Source of the DNA: Alphaproteobacteria bacterium
GTDB taxonomy: Bacteria; Pseudomonadota; Alphaproteobacteria; Rhizobiales; GCA-2746425
Assembly: GCA_024743215.1 (NCBI GenBank)
Contig: JANSWZ010000005.1
Location: forward strand, 124,001 to 188,000
Direction of reading: 5' to 3'
DNA length: 64,000 nt
The position numbers and the translations under genes are program-made. The notes under the pieces are model-generated. The model was not told where the DNA came from. It was given only the letters and a program-made list of their open reading frames with translations, and made no database searches. Shown one piece after another: positions 7,769 through 57,515 of this stretch (its first letter is position 1; each line of letters begins with the position of its first letter).

Positions 7769-8131
7769 ATGAAAATTGGTCAGCTGGCAGAGGCAACAAG
7801 TGTCTCGACATCCCGCATTCGCTTCTATGAAAAACACGGATTAATACCACCGCCTACGCGACTGGAAAACGGCTATCGTGACTATCCTGAAGAAACGATC
7901 TCAAGGTTGAGAACGATCGCCATGAGCAAAGCTCTGGGTTTCACACTCTCCGAAATTCGACGCATTCTGCCAGACGATCCAAGCAATCTGATCGCGCGTA
8001 GCGATGTTGTGGCTAATCTTGAAACGAAGCTGGTCGATATTGATCAGCAAATTGAAAATCTCAAGGCGATGCGCGGAAAAGTACGAAAGATGATCACCTA
8101 TTTTGAGGATCCAAATTCGGCAAAGTGCTGA
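7769..8131 (+). CDS. MerR family transcriptional regulator
   Basis: 120 residues. The N-terminal winged helix is clear (MKIGQLAEATSVSTSRIRFY, then GLIPPPTRLENGYRDY). Residues about 78-112 form the dimerization coiled coil (LETKLVDIDQQIENLKAM). No conserved cysteine set for metal or redox sensing is seen; a single Cys is the last residue. It is divergent from the Old Yellow Enzyme gene, whose promoter lies between them and has a 19-base spacer. It probably responds to an electrophile or to a substrate of that enzyme. Confidence 0.9.
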   Translation: MKIGQLAEATSVSTSRIRFYEKHGLIPPPTRLENGYRDYPEETISRLRTIAMSKALGFTLSEIRRILPDDPSNLIARSDVVANLETKLVDIDQQIENLKAMRGKVRKMITYFEDPNSAKC

Positions 8132-15844: not shown

Positions 15845-16135
15845 AGCCGGTTTTACCGATTGATCGAAATAATTGGCAGTGTTCAGTTCCCAATAAGTGG
15901 TTTTCTTTGGCGGAGTCCGCGTTTCGACACTGCAATTGGTAGCCATCGACAGAAACGATGCATTTGCCGCCATGGAGGCAGCACCTGCGCATGTCGATAC
16001 CGGGCGTAAGCGCGGGAACGTGGCCGTTTCAGTGGCTGAACGCGCTGGTGCTTCACAAGCAGTCTGGCGATGGCAATCAGCCTGCACCTTTACATCGGAC
16101 TTGGCAGCTGTTGCGCTGCGTGTATGCTACTTTGC

Positions 16136-17140
16136 ATGGGTTATGTAACGTCACTCTTTGCGCGAAAAATGGTTGCTGCGGCTGGCGATAGCGTTGACGC
16201 TTCGCGGCTGTTGACGAGTGTCGGGATTAACCCTGAAGGCCCTTGGGAGCCGAAAGACATGATCCCGGCCGCTGACTATTATGACATGCTGGAACGCATC
16301 GCAGAGCAGACTGACGTTACAGGGCTACCGCTGCGAACTGGAGCCTCCATGCGCTTGGACGAATATGGCGCGTTAGGGTTGGCCTTTAAGGCCGCAACGA
16401 CACTGGGTGCGTCTTATGCACGGATAGAACGCTATGCTCGATTATGGACCAGCGTGGTGGAATATGAGTTGCGGCCACATCCGTTGGGTACGCTCTTTAT
16501 CCTGCAAAGGGCGGGCGAGCGACGTTTGGGTCTCCGGCTGTCAAACGAAGCGACGTTGGCGAGCGCTGTGTCGATCGCGCGGCAGGTCAGCCCCGGGCCT
16601 GTCAAACCCTTGGAAGTGCTCGTCCAGCATGCAGCACCGAAATCGCTTGCAGCCCATGAAGACTGGTTTGGTTGCCCCGTTCGGTTTGATGCCGAGCTCG
16701 ACGCGATCCTGTTCTCGCCTGAAACAATGGCGCAGCCAAACCTTTTGGGTGACGAAGGGATCTCTCGGTACCTGATCTCACATCTGGATGCTGAACTGTC
16801 TCAGATCGCAGCAGAGGTCACATTCGTGGACCAAGCCAAAGATGCTATCGCGCAGGCGCTTAGCGAGGGGTCGCCAAAGATGACGCATATCGCCGGCGGC
16901 CTTGGCCTCAGCGCGCGGTCTCTTCACAGGCGTTTGTCTGAACATGGGATGAGCTTTAAGGTTTTGACTGAAGAAACCCGCCGGGATCTTGCCGAAGGGC
17001 TATTGCGGGATGAACGGCATTCGCTGGCGGAGATTGCGTTTCTGACAGGGTTCTCCGAGCAAAGCGCCTTCACCCGGGCTTTCAAACGTTGGGTCGGGCG
17101 CACTCCAGCCAGCTACCGCAAGGCAATCTTTGCCCGCTAA
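16136..17140 (+). CDS. AraC family transcriptional regulator
   Basis: 334 residues from the chosen ATG at 16136 (MGYVTSLFARKMVAAAG); an ATG at 16169 or the longer frame from 16070 are alternatives. The N-terminal 200 or so residues resemble the arabinose-binding-like domain of the AraC/OruR class. The C-terminal 100 carry two helix-turn-helix units: MTHIAGGLGLSARSLHRRL and LAEIAFLTGFSEQSAFTRAF, ending in RWVGRTPASYRK. It lies 104 bases upstream of a co-directional three-gene operon (NmrA-like, DUF4345, DUF1772) which it probably activates. Confidence 0.88.
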   Translation: MGYVTSLFARKMVAAAGDSVDASRLLTSVGINPEGPWEPKDMIPAADYYDMLERIAEQTDVTGLPLRTGASMRLDEYGALGLAFKAATTLGASYARIERYARLWTSVVEYELRPHPLGTLFILQRAGERRLGLRLSNEATLASAVSIARQVSPGPVKPLEVLVQHAAPKSLAAHEDWFGCPVRFDAELDAILFSPETMAQPNLLGDEGISRYLISHLDAELSQIAAEVTFVDQAKDAIAQALSEGSPKMTHIAGGLGLSARSLHRRLSEHGMSFKVLTEETRRDLAEGLLRDERHSLAEIAFLTGFSEQSAFTRAFKRWVGRTPASYRKAIFAR

Positions 17141-17244
17141 CCGCATCTGTGGCAGCGATGGTCAAAACAGTGGCAGAGCCGGTCAATACCGCGACCCTGC
17201 GCATCGCATACCTCTTGGCTATCAATCAGCTAAGGAGCGAAAAA

Positions 17245-18072
17245 ATGCAAAACAATCCAATCCTCGTTATCGGCGCAACCGGCAAAACCGGTTCACGCGT
17301 CGCCACACGCCTTGATGCCATGAACCTGCCTGTCCGGCACGGTACGCGGCGCGCCACCATCCCCTTTGATTGGGACGCCCCGGAAACATGGGCACCTGTG
17401 CTTGAGGGTGTCGAAAAAGCCTATGTTACATACTTTCCCGATCTTGCATTTCCCGGTGCAGTGGAGAAGGTGGCGGCCTTTTGTGGCGCGGCTAAGACAA
17501 GCGGCCTGAAACACATCGTCCTGCTGTCGGGACGTGGTGAACACCATGCTCGTTTGGGCGAAGAGGTCGTGCGCAACTCAGGAATCGACTTCACCCTGGT
17601 GCGGTCGTCCTGGTTTGCCCAGAACTTCAGCGAAGGCTACCTGCGTGATCCGATTTTGGCTGGCGTCCTGCCCATGCCCGGCGGTCTGATCAAAGAACCG
17701 ATCATCGATATTGACGATATCGCCGATGTTGTAATCGCGGCCCTGACCGAAGACGGTCACAAGGGCGAACTCTATGAAGTCACCGGGCCACGGTTGATGA
17801 GCTTTGCGGATATGGCGGAAACCTTGTCCGAGGCCATTGGCCGCCCTGTCAAACACATCCCGATCAGCTTTGAAGACTTCCACGCCAACGTCGCGGCATC
17901 GGGTGGTGAATTCGTCGCTGACGTTTTCACAGCCATCGCTCGCGAAACCCTCGACGGACGCAATGCCGTCGTGTGCGACGGTGTGGAACGCGCGTTGGGC
18001 CGCCCGGCCCGCGACTTTGCGGAATATGCCAAATCCGGAGCATTGTCCGGCCAGTGGTCCACTGCTGCCTGA
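17245..18072 (+). CDS. NmrA/NAD(P)-binding family oxidoreductase
   Basis: 275 residues from the ATG at 17245, which follows AAGGAGCG; the frame opens upstream at 17089 without a plausible start. A Rossmann fold is evident from NPILVIGATGKTGSRVATRL at the N-terminus (GxTGxxG). HIVLLSGRGEHHA and FTLVRSSWFAQNFSEGYL match NmrA-like and quinone-reductase-like atypical SDR proteins that act on quinones or sense NADP. The usual YxxxK catalytic pair of classical SDRs is not evident. It heads an operon with two small membrane proteins. Confidence 0.82.
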   Translation: MQNNPILVIGATGKTGSRVATRLDAMNLPVRHGTRRATIPFDWDAPETWAPVLEGVEKAYVTYFPDLAFPGAVEKVAAFCGAAKTSGLKHIVLLSGRGEHHARLGEEVVRNSGIDFTLVRSSWFAQNFSEGYLRDPILAGVLPMPGGLIKEPIIDIDDIADVVIAALTEDGHKGELYEVTGPRLMSFADMAETLSEAIGRPVKHIPISFEDFHANVAASGGEFVADVFTAIARETLDGRNAVVCDGVERALGRPARDFAEYAKSGALSGQWSTAA

Positions 18073-18109
18073 TCCCCTCTCAGTCACCTTGCACATAAAG
18101 GAGGTTTTC

Positions 18110-18535
18110 ATGACCTTAAGTATCTTTCAAAAATCAACTCTGGGCATTGCCGGTGTAACCGCACTCGGGATTGGTCTGGCAATCCTTGCCGCGCCGCATG
18201 CGTTCTATGCCAGCTACGGCATTACACTTGGCGCAGACGTCAATTTGCTCAGTGAACTTCGGGCACCTGCCGCAGGGCTCGCCGCACTGGGCGCCCTCAT
18301 GCTGATGGGCATTTGGCGTGAGGCCTGGCGCGAAACATCGATTGTTGCGGCTTTCACCGTTTTCTTTGCCTTCCCGGCAGGTCGGATTGTCGGGATCATT
18401 GTCGATGGCATCCCCGCTGGCAGCGTCATTGGCGCGTTGGTGCTTGAACTCGCGATAGCAGCACTTTGCCTGGCGGCATTTGGTCATCGTATTTGGGCCG
18501 GCAAGCAAAGTGGCCCTTTACCCAAACACACGTAG
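18110..18535 (+). CDS. DUF4345-like small membrane protein
   Basis: 141 residues with four predicted membrane helices (about residues 10-30, 48-68, 75-97 and 105-127). The pattern, including the APHAFYASYGI and LSELRAPAAGLAALG stretches, resembles DUF4345 proteins of unknown function. The start ATG follows AAAGGAGG. It lies 37 bases after the NmrA-like gene and 67 before the DUF1772 gene, so the three are probably co-transcribed. Confidence 0.72.
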   Translation: MTLSIFQKSTLGIAGVTALGIGLAILAAPHAFYASYGITLGADVNLLSELRAPAAGLAALGALMLMGIWREAWRETSIVAAFTVFFAFPAGRIVGIIVDGIPAGSVIGALVLELAIAALCLAAFGHRIWAGKQSGPLPKHT

Positions 18536-18602
18536 GTCACTCTCAAACGCGGCGGGCGCATTGATCGTCCTGCCGCTCCAACCTCTTAAGGGAGAAAATC
18601 CA

Positions 18603-19112
18603 ATGTCCCCTATCATCTTCATTTTCCTACAACTCGCCATCATCGCATATGCGCTGGTCAGCGGCGTCTTCCTTGCGTTTTCCGATTTTATCATGCGGTC
18701 ACTGGCCAATACCGGCGGCGTTGGCGGCGTGGATGCGATGCAGATCATCAACCGCGAGGTGTTTCGCTGGGTCTTTATGGCGCTCTTCATCGGGCTGGCG
18801 CCTTTATCCCTTCTGATCTCGGTCTATGGCGGTGTGTTTATCGGCAATGGTCCGGGCAACGCCATCATGCTTGCAGGCCTGATCTATTTCATCGGCTGTT
18901 TTGGGGTCACGGTCTGTTTCAACGTTCCAATGAATGAAGCTCTGGCTGGCATGGACGTGACTGCTGACGCAACCCGTGCCTACTGGACCGGCACCTATCT
19001 GCCGCGTTGGACCTTCTGGAACACAGTGCGCACCATTGCCAGTGGCGTCTCTGCTGCGCTTTTGCTGTTCGGGCTGTTGTGGGCGACACAAACGCAAGCG
19101 CAGACGGTTTGA
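18603..19112 (+). CDS. DUF1772/anthrone-oxygenase-like membrane protein
   Basis: 169 residues with four hydrophobic segments. The hallmarks of the family are visible: FNVPMNEAL (about 103-111) followed by YWTGTYLPRWTFWNTVRTIAS (positions about 125-145, key W, R, W, N, R). The family takes its name from fungal anthrone oxygenases, but most bacterial members have no tested activity. Together with the NmrA-like oxidoreductase it might modify a small aromatic or quinone compound; that is speculative. A second member of this family is at 56319-56825. Confidence 0.82.
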   Translation: MSPIIFIFLQLAIIAYALVSGVFLAFSDFIMRSLANTGGVGGVDAMQIINREVFRWVFMALFIGLAPLSLLISVYGGVFIGNGPGNAIMLAGLIYFIGCFGVTVCFNVPMNEALAGMDVTADATRAYWTGTYLPRWTFWNTVRTIASGVSAALLLFGLLWATQTQAQTV

Positions 19113-19202: not shown

Positions 19203-19697
19203 ATGTCCCGGAAAACACCCACACTCCACATGCTTTGCGGCAAGATCGCAGCAGGAAAATCGACTCTGGCCGCGAAGCTTGGACGTGCCGAAGGCACAGT
19301 TACACTTTCCGAAGATATGTGGTTGAGCCAACTATTTGCCGACCAGATATCATCGCCCGCAGACTATGTGCGTTGTAGTGCAAAGCTACGCGATGCCATG
19401 GGTCCGCACGTCGTCGCCTTGTTGAATGCTGGCGTCTCTGTCGTCTTAGACTTTCCCGCCAACACGTTCGAAAACCGCAGCTGGATGCGCAGTCTGCTTG
19501 ATCAGACCCAAGCAGATCATGCGCTACATGTCCTCAACCCACCCGATGCGGTTTGCCTTGAGCGGCTGCACAAACGCAATGCTGCTCAAGATCATCCCTT
19601 TGCCGCGACAGAGAAACAATTCGAAATGTTTTCCAAACACTTCGTCCTTCCGTCGGCGAAAGAGGCTTTCAAAATCGTAGAACATAGCGCGGTCTGA
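19203..19697 (+). CDS. AAA family ATPase / P-loop kinase-like protein
   Basis: 164 residues from the ATG at 19203. The Walker A motif GKIAAGKST is at about residues 13-21; a DxxANT-type stretch LDFPANTFENRSWM (about 82-95) and a kinase-like lid region ERLHKRNAAQ follow. It resembles the short AAA_33-type kinases (zeta-toxin- or chloramphenicol-phosphotransferase-like) whose substrates are usually unknown. No antitoxin-like partner is adjacent. It is 90 bases beyond the DUF1772 gene and may or may not belong to that operon. Confidence 0.75.
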   Translation: MSRKTPTLHMLCGKIAAGKSTLAAKLGRAEGTVTLSEDMWLSQLFADQISSPADYVRCSAKLRDAMGPHVVALLNAGVSVVLDFPANTFENRSWMRSLLDQTQADHALHVLNPPDAVCLERLHKRNAAQDHPFAATEKQFEMFSKHFVLPSAKEAFKIVEHSAV

Positions 19698-56318: not shown

Positions 56319-56825
56319 TCATAGTTGCGGTCTGGCGGACAGTTTAAGCGTCCCGATAACAGCCAGCAGAAATGCCAGACCGGACGCGATCGTGCGCGAC
56401 TGGTTCCAAAACTGCCAGGGTTTGGAATAGTCCTGCCAGATTGTTTTGGCGGCCTCCAGATTTTCCGGAACAACGATGCGGGCCAGCGCTTCATTCATGG
56501 GCACATTGACAGCCATTGTCAGAACAAGACCGAAACACAGATAGACCGCGCCGCTGAGCGCAAAAAACTTTGCACTTGTTTTGTAATCGCGTGCCCAGAG
56601 CAGCGCTGCGGTAACGGCCAGAACCACTGGCGTTCCGAAGAATGCCGGTGCGAAGACAGCGTTTCGGACGGAAGCGTTCATGGCCTGCATGGCAGAAATC
56701 GCAATGCGCGGATCTGCTGCATCCAGTCCCCACATGGTGGAACAGACCCAGGCATAGAAAAAGCCGAAGATCGCTGCGCACAGGATCAAAGACAGGGAGA
56801 TCATGGTTGAAATCATCTTTGACAT
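56319..56825 (-). CDS. DUF1772/anthrone-oxygenase-like membrane protein
   Basis: 168 residues, four membrane helices. The family residues are in VNVPMNEALARI and YSKPWQFWNQSRTIASGLAFLL (C-terminal third). ATG at 56825 with AAAGGAG upstream is chosen over the TTG two codons earlier. It is divergent from a TetR regulator with two operator-like palindromes between them, so it is probably induced by the TetR ligand, perhaps a hydrophobic small molecule. A paralogue in a different context is at 18603-19112. Confidence 0.85.
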   Translation of the reverse strand: MSKMISTMISLSLILCAAIFGFFYAWVCSTMWGLDAADPRIAISAMQAMNASVRNAVFAPAFFGTPVVLAVTAALLWARDYKTSAKFFALSGAVYLCFGLVLTMAVNVPMNEALARIVVPENLEAAKTIWQDYSKPWQFWNQSRTIASGLAFLLAVIGTLKLSARPQL

Positions 56826-56841
56826 TTTCAAACTCCTTTAC

Positions 56842-56886
56842 CGTACATATATGTACGTATTTACTATTCCGTATAGATGTGTACGG
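56842..56886. promoter_or_regulatory. Twin TetR operators
   Basis: A perfect 16-bp palindrome CGTACATATATGTACG at 56842-56857 and an imperfect one at 56869-56886 with arms CCGTA and TACGG, centres 28 bp apart. They sit between the divergent DUF1772 and TetR genes. Repression of both promoters by the TetR protein is inferred. Confidence 0.65.
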
Positions 56887-56915
56887 TATTTAGCAAGTCA
56901 AAACTGGAATTTGAT

Positions 56916-57515
56916 ATGCGGACCGACAAGAAGCAGAAACGGCATCAGGAGATTTCCGAGGCGGCCTATGCCCTGCTGGATAAGCACGGCTACGGTGGCA
57001 CCTCCATGCTCAGCATCGCCAAAGCCGCCGGTGCCTCAAACGAGACGCTGTATCGCTGGTACGGTGACAAGCAAAATCTGTTTGCGGCCATGGTTCAAGA
57101 CAATGCAGCGATTGTGAAAGCCGAGTTGGAGGCCAGCCTGACAGGGGATGACGATCCGATGGCAGCCCTTACGAAGATCGGCGCGAAACTGTTAACGTTG
57201 CTGACCGGCGAGCGCGCTATTGCGCTTAATCGGGCCGCAGCTTCGGACAGCAGTGGCGCATTGGGCGCAACCATTGCCGAGGCCGGTCGCGGCACGATAG
57301 CACCCCTACTGGAAAAATTGTTTGCCCGTATGGTGCAAACCGGTGTTCTGGCAGTTGAAAACTCGTCTGAGGCGACCGAGATCTATCTGGGTTTGCTGAT
57401 CGGTGATCTGCAAATACGCCGAGTGATCGGGCAATTGGAGCCCTTATCCGAAGCCGCTTGCAGCGCTCGATCTGACCGGGCGCTGGTGCTGCTCAGGAAA
57501 CTTTATGCGGCCTGA
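56916..57515 (+). CDS. TetR/AcrR family transcriptional regulator
   Basis: 199 residues from the ATG at 56916 (an ATG at 56877 would start inside the second operator). The N-terminal helix-turn-helix is HGYGGTSMLSIAKAAGASNETLYRWYGDKQNLFAAMV; the remaining helices form a ligand-binding domain of the AefR-like type. It probably controls the divergent DUF1772 gene and itself. The ligand is unknown. Confidence 0.9.
   Translation: MRTDKKQKRHQEISEAAYALLDKHGYGGTSMLSIAKAAGASNETLYRWYGDKQNLFAAMVQDNAAIVKAELEASLTGDDDPMAALTKIGAKLLTLLTGERAIALNRAAASDSSGALGATIAEAGRGTIAPLLEKLFARMVQTGVLAVENSSEATEIYLGLLIGDLQIRRVIGQLEPLSEAACSARSDRALVLLRKLYAA

Follow-up and report, generated by a model that had tools for sequence, protein, structure and literature searches.

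We describe a four-gene cassette of a Rhizobiales genome (assembly GCA_024743215.1), located at positions 16136-19112 of a 64,000-nucleotide stretch of contig JANSWZ010000005.1 (positions 124,001 to 188,000, forward strand; hereafter called the "window"). The cassette encodes an AraC-family regulator (P0001), an NmrA-like atypical short-chain dehydrogenase/reductase (SDR; P0002), and two small membrane proteins of the DUF4345 (P0003) and DUF1772 (P0004) families. As judged from sequence, it is real, widespread, modular, and locally regulated; the order and co-conservation of the genes, the operator, the enzyme swaps, and the opposite charge biases of the membrane proteins are visible in the sequences themselves. 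We tentatively propose, with slightly more doubt than confidence, that AraC activates the cassette and that its cytosolic reductase, together with four-helix membrane proteins, acts on a reactive, likely quinone-like or aromatic compound. A redox or detoxification role on such a compound is the likeliest reading, though unproven.

Co-conservation and modularity of the cassette

The four genes lie on the forward strand in the order proposed by the first-pass annotation of the window, and their Pfam matches confirm the assignments. P0001 (16136..17140, 334 aa) combines an Arabinose_bd N-domain (PF12625, 135.6 bits) with an HTH_18 domain (PF12833, 72 bits; cut-off 33.6). The NAD(P)H-binding P0002 (17245..18072, 275 aa) reaches 37.0 bits against PF05368 (cut-off 27), P0003 (18110..18535, 141 aa) reaches 83.5 bits against PF14248 (cut-off 26.5), and P0004 (18603..19112, 169 aa) belongs to PF08592, as described below.

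How consistently do these genes occur together? We examined 150 genomes of the order, our own included, a sample that is less biased than the set of 81 loci introduced below. All eight AraC relatives in this sample (E<=1e-60) adjoin a cassette gene: NmrA in six, DUF1772 with a metallo-beta-lactamase (MBL)-fold gene in one (G040), and DUF4345 in one (G084). Among 18 NmrA relatives (E<=1e-70), DUF1772 lies within ~1 kb in 10 and DUF4345 in five, and 11 have one or both; random placement would yield ~0.01 such DUF1772 neighbours, by our own rough estimate. We rejected a chance neighbourhood on the order sample and on a sample of 240 genomes of the class. Thus, the genes are co-conserved elsewhere (8/8 AraC and 11/18 NmrA relatives), and the first-pass annotation, which had made its proposal depend on such co-occurrence, is sustained on this point by the neighbourhood survey.

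The larger set came from a contig scan whose query was an alignment of five NmrA proteins, exclusively from DUF4345-linked loci, and is therefore biased. It comprises the best 80 of 575 loci, mostly from Rhodobacteraceae and other Alphaproteobacteria, plus the window. Both membrane genes are present at 32 of these 81 loci, DUF1772 alone at 22, DUF4345 alone at 17, and neither at 10, so that one or both occur at 71; for this tally, we manually took the second NmrA copy of L088 as its NmrA gene. DUF4345 precedes DUF1772 in all 32 NmrA loci with both genes. In the class sample, DUF4345 adjoins DUF1772 at six of 32 listed places (G000, G158, G239, G271, G291, and G385), and DUF1772 comes first in four of these six pairs (G158, G271, G291, and G385), opposite to the window. 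The fixed order suggested by the NmrA loci is contradicted by these pairs, and is therefore not general.

Plasmid records, which were picked and not sampled, extend this picture to other classes and phyla. We opened the single DUF4345 match, six of 38 DUF1772 matches, and four of 98 NmrA matches by name; one further NmrA record, from Phaeobacter inhibens, is the same record as a DUF1772 match. The NmrA proteins of the Burkholderia and Streptomyces records are 46-54% identical to P0002. NmrA adjoins DUF1772 in two of the six DUF1772 records (P. inhibens and Burkholderia pyrrocinia), and no NmrA gene adjoins it in the other four (Leptolyngbya, Sinorhizobium, Streptomyces NBC_00826, and B. stagnalis). 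In three Streptomyces plasmids, NmrA has genes for an AraC protein and a DUF1772/anthrone-oxygenase protein nearby, in other gene orders; two of the three DUF1772 proteins match P0004 at ~30% identity, while the third is named so only by its record. The AraC proteins of Streptomyces and Salipiger are of the cupin type, not the P0001 type.

The regulators are swapped between cassette copies too, as read from their sequences: an Arabinose_bd AraC, a cupin AraC, a TetR, or a LysR accompanied by pirin and isochorismatase genes. One TetR subfamily stands divergent from NmrA (L103), from an NmrA-DUF1772 pair (B. pyrrocinia), and from DUF1772 genes with no enzyme (L207, L209, L211, L213, and L214; 38-62% identical). 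On plasmid pP30_b of P. inhibens P30, typed as conjugative, the genes run LysR, pirin-like, isochorismatase, AraC, DUF1330, NmrA, DUF1772 (L218, 1-5432), and pirin and isochorismatase genes also stand ahead of NmrA in L035, L037, L058, and L088. On the megaplasmid of Ruegeria sp. TM1040 (L217, 3919-12240), a convergent nqr set, encoding the Na+-translocating NADH:quinone reductase, adjoins AraC-NmrA-DUF4345.

The regulator and its predicted operator

The gap between the AraC and NmrA genes contains two direct repeats, TGGC-N6-GGTCAA, with a 21-bp period (17150..17186, +), and the corresponding gaps of 36 other loci align to the same pattern. By sequence, P0001 belongs with the AraC/XylS regulators: it has the HTH_18 domain, and its predicted target is a tandem of box A/box B direct repeats. 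Its match to the QhpR equivalog (NF049968) falls below the cut-off (204.8 versus 250 bits).

We built an operator matrix from the 36 of 55 AraC loci with both genes on the same strand, a gap of 60-200 bp, and an identity above 55%, and scanned it over both strands of the 80 loci, with thresholds of 19 and 15 bits picked after the scores had been seen. A site of at least 19 bits lies no more than 200 bp before NmrA in 55 of the 80 loci, namely in 53 of 55 loci with this AraC type versus 2 of 25 without a detected one; 19 of the 55 operator-positive loci were absent from the matrix building. In two AraC loci, L084 and L088, such a site is missing; their AraC proteins are only 40-43% identical, and L088 retains an 8.3-bit site at the expected place. 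The two operator loci without a detected AraC are L042 and L048, and the contig of L048 begins just before NmrA. L042 carries a 44.6-bit operator before NmrA (7903-7942, +) and no AraC of the P0001 type in its 16.8 kb; its regulator may act from elsewhere. Across the 2,433,902 positions scanned, just eight further sites reach 15 bits: seven lie in loci with a wide AraC-NmrA gap, six of them with a called DUF1330 open reading frame there, and the eighth lies in L061. This second operator of L061 (11459-11498, +; 43.1 bits) follows the cassette; it adjoins an AAA_33 gene and precedes a very short reading frame. The shared predicted operator thus tracks this AraC type.

The same relationship holds in 297 genomes of the order, where the operator pattern with at most one mismatch occurs at 22 places (five for the reversed control). 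Thirteen of these adjoin this AraC and all score at least 40 bits, while the nine that do not adjoin it all score 26.7 bits or less; among the 13, the site in L190 stands ahead of an MBL-DUF1772 pair. Loci outside the matrix agree: P. inhibens P30 carries a 44.3-bit site ahead of NmrA and a 35.4-bit site ahead of DUF1330, and in Ruegeria TM1040, with an AraC of 41% identity, a 14.8-bit site occupies the expected place and is the best in 12 kb. In our own genome, the only exact match is that of the window. The eight matches with three mismatches, compared with two for the reversed control, were taken as chance, and we rejected a regulon beyond the cassette.

Downstream of the repeats, a -10-like hexamer (TACCTC in the window, 17209..17214, +, 22 nt past the second repeat) lies 21-22 nt away in 32 of 37 aligned sequences, versus 2.4% of shuffles searched over a wider range, with the motif chosen after the alignment had been seen. 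This spacing would put the second operator box on the -35 region. A ribosome-binding-like AAGGAG (17232-17237) is read ahead of the NmrA gene.

Membrane proteins, exchangeable enzymes, and genomic setting

The AlphaFold2 models of the DUF4345 and DUF1772 proteins are four-helix bundles, with mean predicted local distance difference test (pLDDT) scores of 93.7 and 90.1, and P0004 passes the gathering score of Anthrone_oxy (PF08592; 53.2 versus 27.3 bits). The first-pass description of two four-helix membrane proteins, one of them anthrone-oxygenase-like, is thereby borne out. A profile comparison gives a 0.3% probability of homology between DUF4345 and DUF1772, and we therefore treat them as separate families. 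The only Pfam matches at E<=0.01 are DUF4345 for P0003 and Anthrone_oxy for P0004, and DUF6081 does not appear.

To compare the charges of their loops, we aligned P0003 with 39 of 49 locus sequences and P0004 with 40 of 54; the DUF1772 sequences of L013, L016, L043, and L047 and the DUF4345 sequence of L017 were excluded because their extended frames contain stops, and the others for length or as near repeats. The mean number of lysine and arginine residues in DUF1772 is 3.24 in loop 1-2 and 3.20 in loop 3-4, and 0 to 0.22 elsewhere. DUF4345 has the opposite bias, with 0.17 and 0.03 in these loops and 1.48 to 3.27 elsewhere. According to the positive-inside rule, positively charged loops are assigned to the cytoplasmic side. 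These counts therefore suggest that the conserved residues of DUF1772 (including D28, R32, N50, E52, N107, P109, N111, W128, W136, N140, and R143) are cytoplasmic, and that those of DUF4345 (Y36, E49, R51, R92, D99, and E113) are at or near the periplasmic side. The invariant D, R, N, E, and W residues of DUF1772 cluster at one face.

Several structural and functional leads were set aside. For DUF1772, VIA-align listed general helical bundles (best Z 13.0, for a designed one), which is uninformative, and we claim no new fold; weak Foldseek MAPEG rows (TM ~0.2) were discarded. A role in phage defence was rejected, as the PADLOC-DB anti-phage profiles (E<=0.001) match none of the five proteins searched (0 families for each), and the "phage infection protein" profile scores 16.8 bits on DUF4345 against a cut-off of 120.

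P0002 carries the dinucleotide motif G-A-T-G-K-T-G at residues 10-16, with G10, G13, and G16 invariant in five sequences, and together with its gathering score this places it in the NmrA-like family; it falls below the cut-off of the ergot EasG subfamily (TIGR03649; 109.4 versus 256.4 bits). In the PDB, the chains closest to it are SimC7, 8r2j, triphenylmethane reductase, 3e48, and YtfG. Of these, SimC7, triphenylmethane reductase, and YtfG are known, by name or otherwise, as reductases that act on aromatic compounds or quinones.

The enzyme encoded before DUF1772 can be exchanged, on the evidence of the neighbouring genes: a short SDR, a flavodoxin-fold reductase, or an MBL-fold protein can take the place of NmrA. 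Beside 26 DUF1772 relatives of the order sample (E<=1.5e-20), we find NmrA in 10, a short SDR (NAD_binding_10) in four, Flavodoxin_2 in two, and an MBL fold in one. The 19 DUF1772 places of the class sample (E<=1e-20) have a short SDR in seven, NmrA in four, a flavodoxin in one, and an MBL-like protein in one (G302, assigned by eye because it resembles the L090 protein). These replacements stand under the same kinds of regulator. A glutathione S-transferase (GST) gene adjoins one DUF4345 gene (L091), and the Leptolyngbya DUF1772 gene has GST next door and a MAPEG gene two further.

The cassette looks accessory in its genome, judging from its flanks and from related genomes. Upstream lies a trans-3-hydroxy-L-proline dehydratase gene; the DNA similarity to the same-genus genome G080 (88-89%) spans this gene and ends abruptly at 15866, 22 bp past it and just ahead of the cassette. 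The next 6.9 kb of G080 gives no match to 8-30 kb of the window. None of four other same-genus genomes (G040, G080, G115, and G145) has an NmrA match at E<=1e-20, and G040 carries the AraC-MBL-DUF1772 version. Directly after the cassette is an AAA_33 P-loop protein gene (19203..19697, +), which is loosely associated and probably not core: a relative occurs in 12 of the 81 NmrA loci, and adjoins the cassette in one of eight order-sample genomes with a relative, so that its support as a core member is weak.

The genome also contains divergent second copies of both membrane genes. A DUF1772 gene at 56319-56831 (-), 35% identical to P0004, adjoins a divergent TetR gene (56877-57515, +), and TetR-like genes similar to the latter adjoin other distant DUF1772 genes (L157, L159, L163, L165, and L168; by eye). 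A second DUF4345 gene (G000:C6:68933-69253, 36.5 bits) lies in the 3.3-kb locus L002, where a search with the four cassette proteins gave no match.

Proposed function, alternatives, and known systems

How might the cassette work? The AraC protein would sense the compound or a stress product and occupy the 17150-17186 repeats as a pair; from there, overlapping the -35 region, it would activate the promoter that drives the NmrA-DUF4345-DUF1772 operon. The cytosolic NmrA-like enzyme would then reduce the compound using NAD(P)H. We infer a partner role for the membrane proteins: DUF1772 may pick up the lipophilic substrate or product at the membrane as the partner of the enzyme, and is perhaps a cofactor-free oxidase like HypC, while DUF4345, whose conserved residues are predicted to lie on the periplasmic side, would be a further, optional partner in the membrane. 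A more speculative idea, which we consider rather unlikely, is that DUF1772 and DUF4345 form a two-sided membrane module, with one conserved site turned to the cytoplasm and the other to the periplasm. Working with interchangeable NAD(P)H-using enzymes, and having neither metal nor flavin itself, this module would oxidise, hold, or pass on lipophilic quinone-like compounds; it would be a widespread substrate-induced membrane redox system not yet described.

The membrane-associated role on a quinone or aromatic compound put forward in the first-pass annotation fits the families that replace NmrA, the solved SDR relatives, and the published reductase-oxidase pairs. Several observations, however, weigh against our proposal and against a fixed four-gene system. 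Neither membrane gene is present in 7 of the 18 order-sample NmrA relatives or at 10 of the 81 NmrA loci, although one of these ten (L064) ends at a contig edge with a partial DUF1772 visible. Among DUF1772 relatives, 7 of the 24 assessable ones in the order sample have no such enzyme beside them, with two more at contig ends, and the same is true for 6 of the 19 class-sample places in the stretch read. In three genomes, NmrA is replaced by an MBL protein that starts with a signal-peptide-like stretch (by eye); this would place it outside the cytoplasm, and not every partner would therefore be cytosolic. The DUF1772 loops are equally acidic (3.10 and 3.12), so that the sidedness is a prediction only. 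Foldseek gave no match for either membrane model at E<=0.001, and no fold match backs a function. Finally, the proposed HypC catalytic motif QLXXQWSRIFY is not in P0004, whose residues 47-56 are QIINREVFRW, and no Q-L-x-x-Q/N-W occurs anywhere in this protein.

Could the SDR and DUF1772 instead modify an endogenous quinone-like or polyketide-like metabolite, as tailoring enzymes and not for detoxification? ActVA-4/ActVA-3 (PMC10697411) and HypC (PMC3202775) are biosynthetic according to the available texts, the persiamycin and lasalocid clusters list DUF1772 genes, and SimC7, the best PDB relative of the SDR, is a polyketide ketoreductase. However, no polyketide synthase or other biosynthetic gene was found among the inspected open reading frames around the cassette, its distribution is patchy and accessory with its own regulator, and the flanking genes vary between loci, and we regard this explanation as unlikely. 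We are similarly doubtful that the membrane proteins lack chemistry of their own and serve as carriers, as efflux helpers, or as scaffolds on behalf of the soluble enzyme. The soluble partner does change while DUF1772 remains, and the DUF1772 protein ChrI is described in the accessible text as required by ChrH without a known catalytic role (PMC10214503); yet the invariant residues at one DUF1772 face seem excessive for a plain scaffold, and HypC made in Escherichia coli turned over its substrate in vitro (PMC3202775).

A catabolic cassette, which would use an aromatic or other compound as food and not respond to stress, is improbable: the gene-order table of the NmrA loci contains no recurring ring-cleavage enzyme, CoA ligase, or transporter. 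AraC regulators with an Arabinose_bd-type N-domain, the family to which that of P0001 belongs, often control catabolism, the match of P0001 to QhpR is strong though under the cut-off, and pirin and isochorismatase genes precede NmrA at some loci. Least probable is a role of the NmrA-like protein in sensing redox state or a cofactor and not as an enzyme. Fungal NmrA is said to be such a sensor, P0002 shares the family name and an intact dinucleotide motif, and the depositors of 8r2j call it a transcriptional regulator; however, the other close PDB relatives are enzymes (SimC7 and triphenylmethane reductase), and enzyme families occupy the place of NmrA in other loci.

The reading that we prefer is thus a role in the redox chemistry or detoxification of a quinone-like or aromatic compound. 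DUF4345, and DUF1772 outside biosynthetic clusters, are poorly understood families, which now gain a context of dedicated regulators, a sharp operator, and interchangeable enzymes; their function thereby becomes directly testable. The predicted operator offers a reporter for an inducer search, and marine bacteria with named loci are at hand, namely Ruegeria sp. TM1040 (TM1040_RS02465 to RS02475) and Phaeobacter inhibens P30.

A literature search, weak on subscription journals, returned no description of this gene combination, and nothing on an anthrone oxygenase with NmrA, or on NmrA and AraC families with quinone in alphaproteobacteria. CatDE of Bacillus subtilis was not used as evidence, because the available text does not describe CatD as a membrane protein. 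In the published reductase-oxidase pairs of polyketide clusters, ActVA-4/ActVA-3 (actinorhodin) and NcnM/NcnN (naphthocyclinone), a quinone-type compound is handled jointly by an NAD(P)H reductase of the NmrA family and a small oxidase that needs no cofactor; NcnN is annotated as DUF6081, not DUF1772, and the accessible part of the article mentions neither an AraC operator nor DUF4345 (PMC10697411). SimC7 and triphenylmethane reductase (PDB 5l3z, 2vrc, and others) are NmrA-like SDRs and the closest solved relatives of P0002, although remote in sequence (E 4e-25 and 3e-12).

On the membrane side, HypC of the fungal aflatoxin cluster is a small oxygenase named as the anthrone oxidase, and the Pfam family to which P0004 belongs by score is Anthrone_oxy; HypC differs in serving fungal biosynthesis and in its proposed motif (PMC3202775). 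ChrI, of the chryseobasin pathway for ribosomally synthesized and post-translationally modified peptides (RiPPs), is the best NCBIfam relative of P0004 over almost its full length, and is likewise an integral membrane partner of a soluble enzyme. P0004 scores below the ChrI equivalog cut-off (NF050162; 81.8 versus 275 bits), and the ChrI partner is, in the text available, a DUF692 iron enzyme, of which we saw none among the families that we scanned (PMC10214503). On the regulatory side, the N-domain of the cassette regulator is Arabinose_bd and its targets differ from those of XylS, but the predicted TGGC-N6-GGTCAA tandem resembles the XylS/Pm operator, which is described as two direct repeats, each composed of box A, 6 bp, and box B (TGCA and GGTA; PMC5481539).

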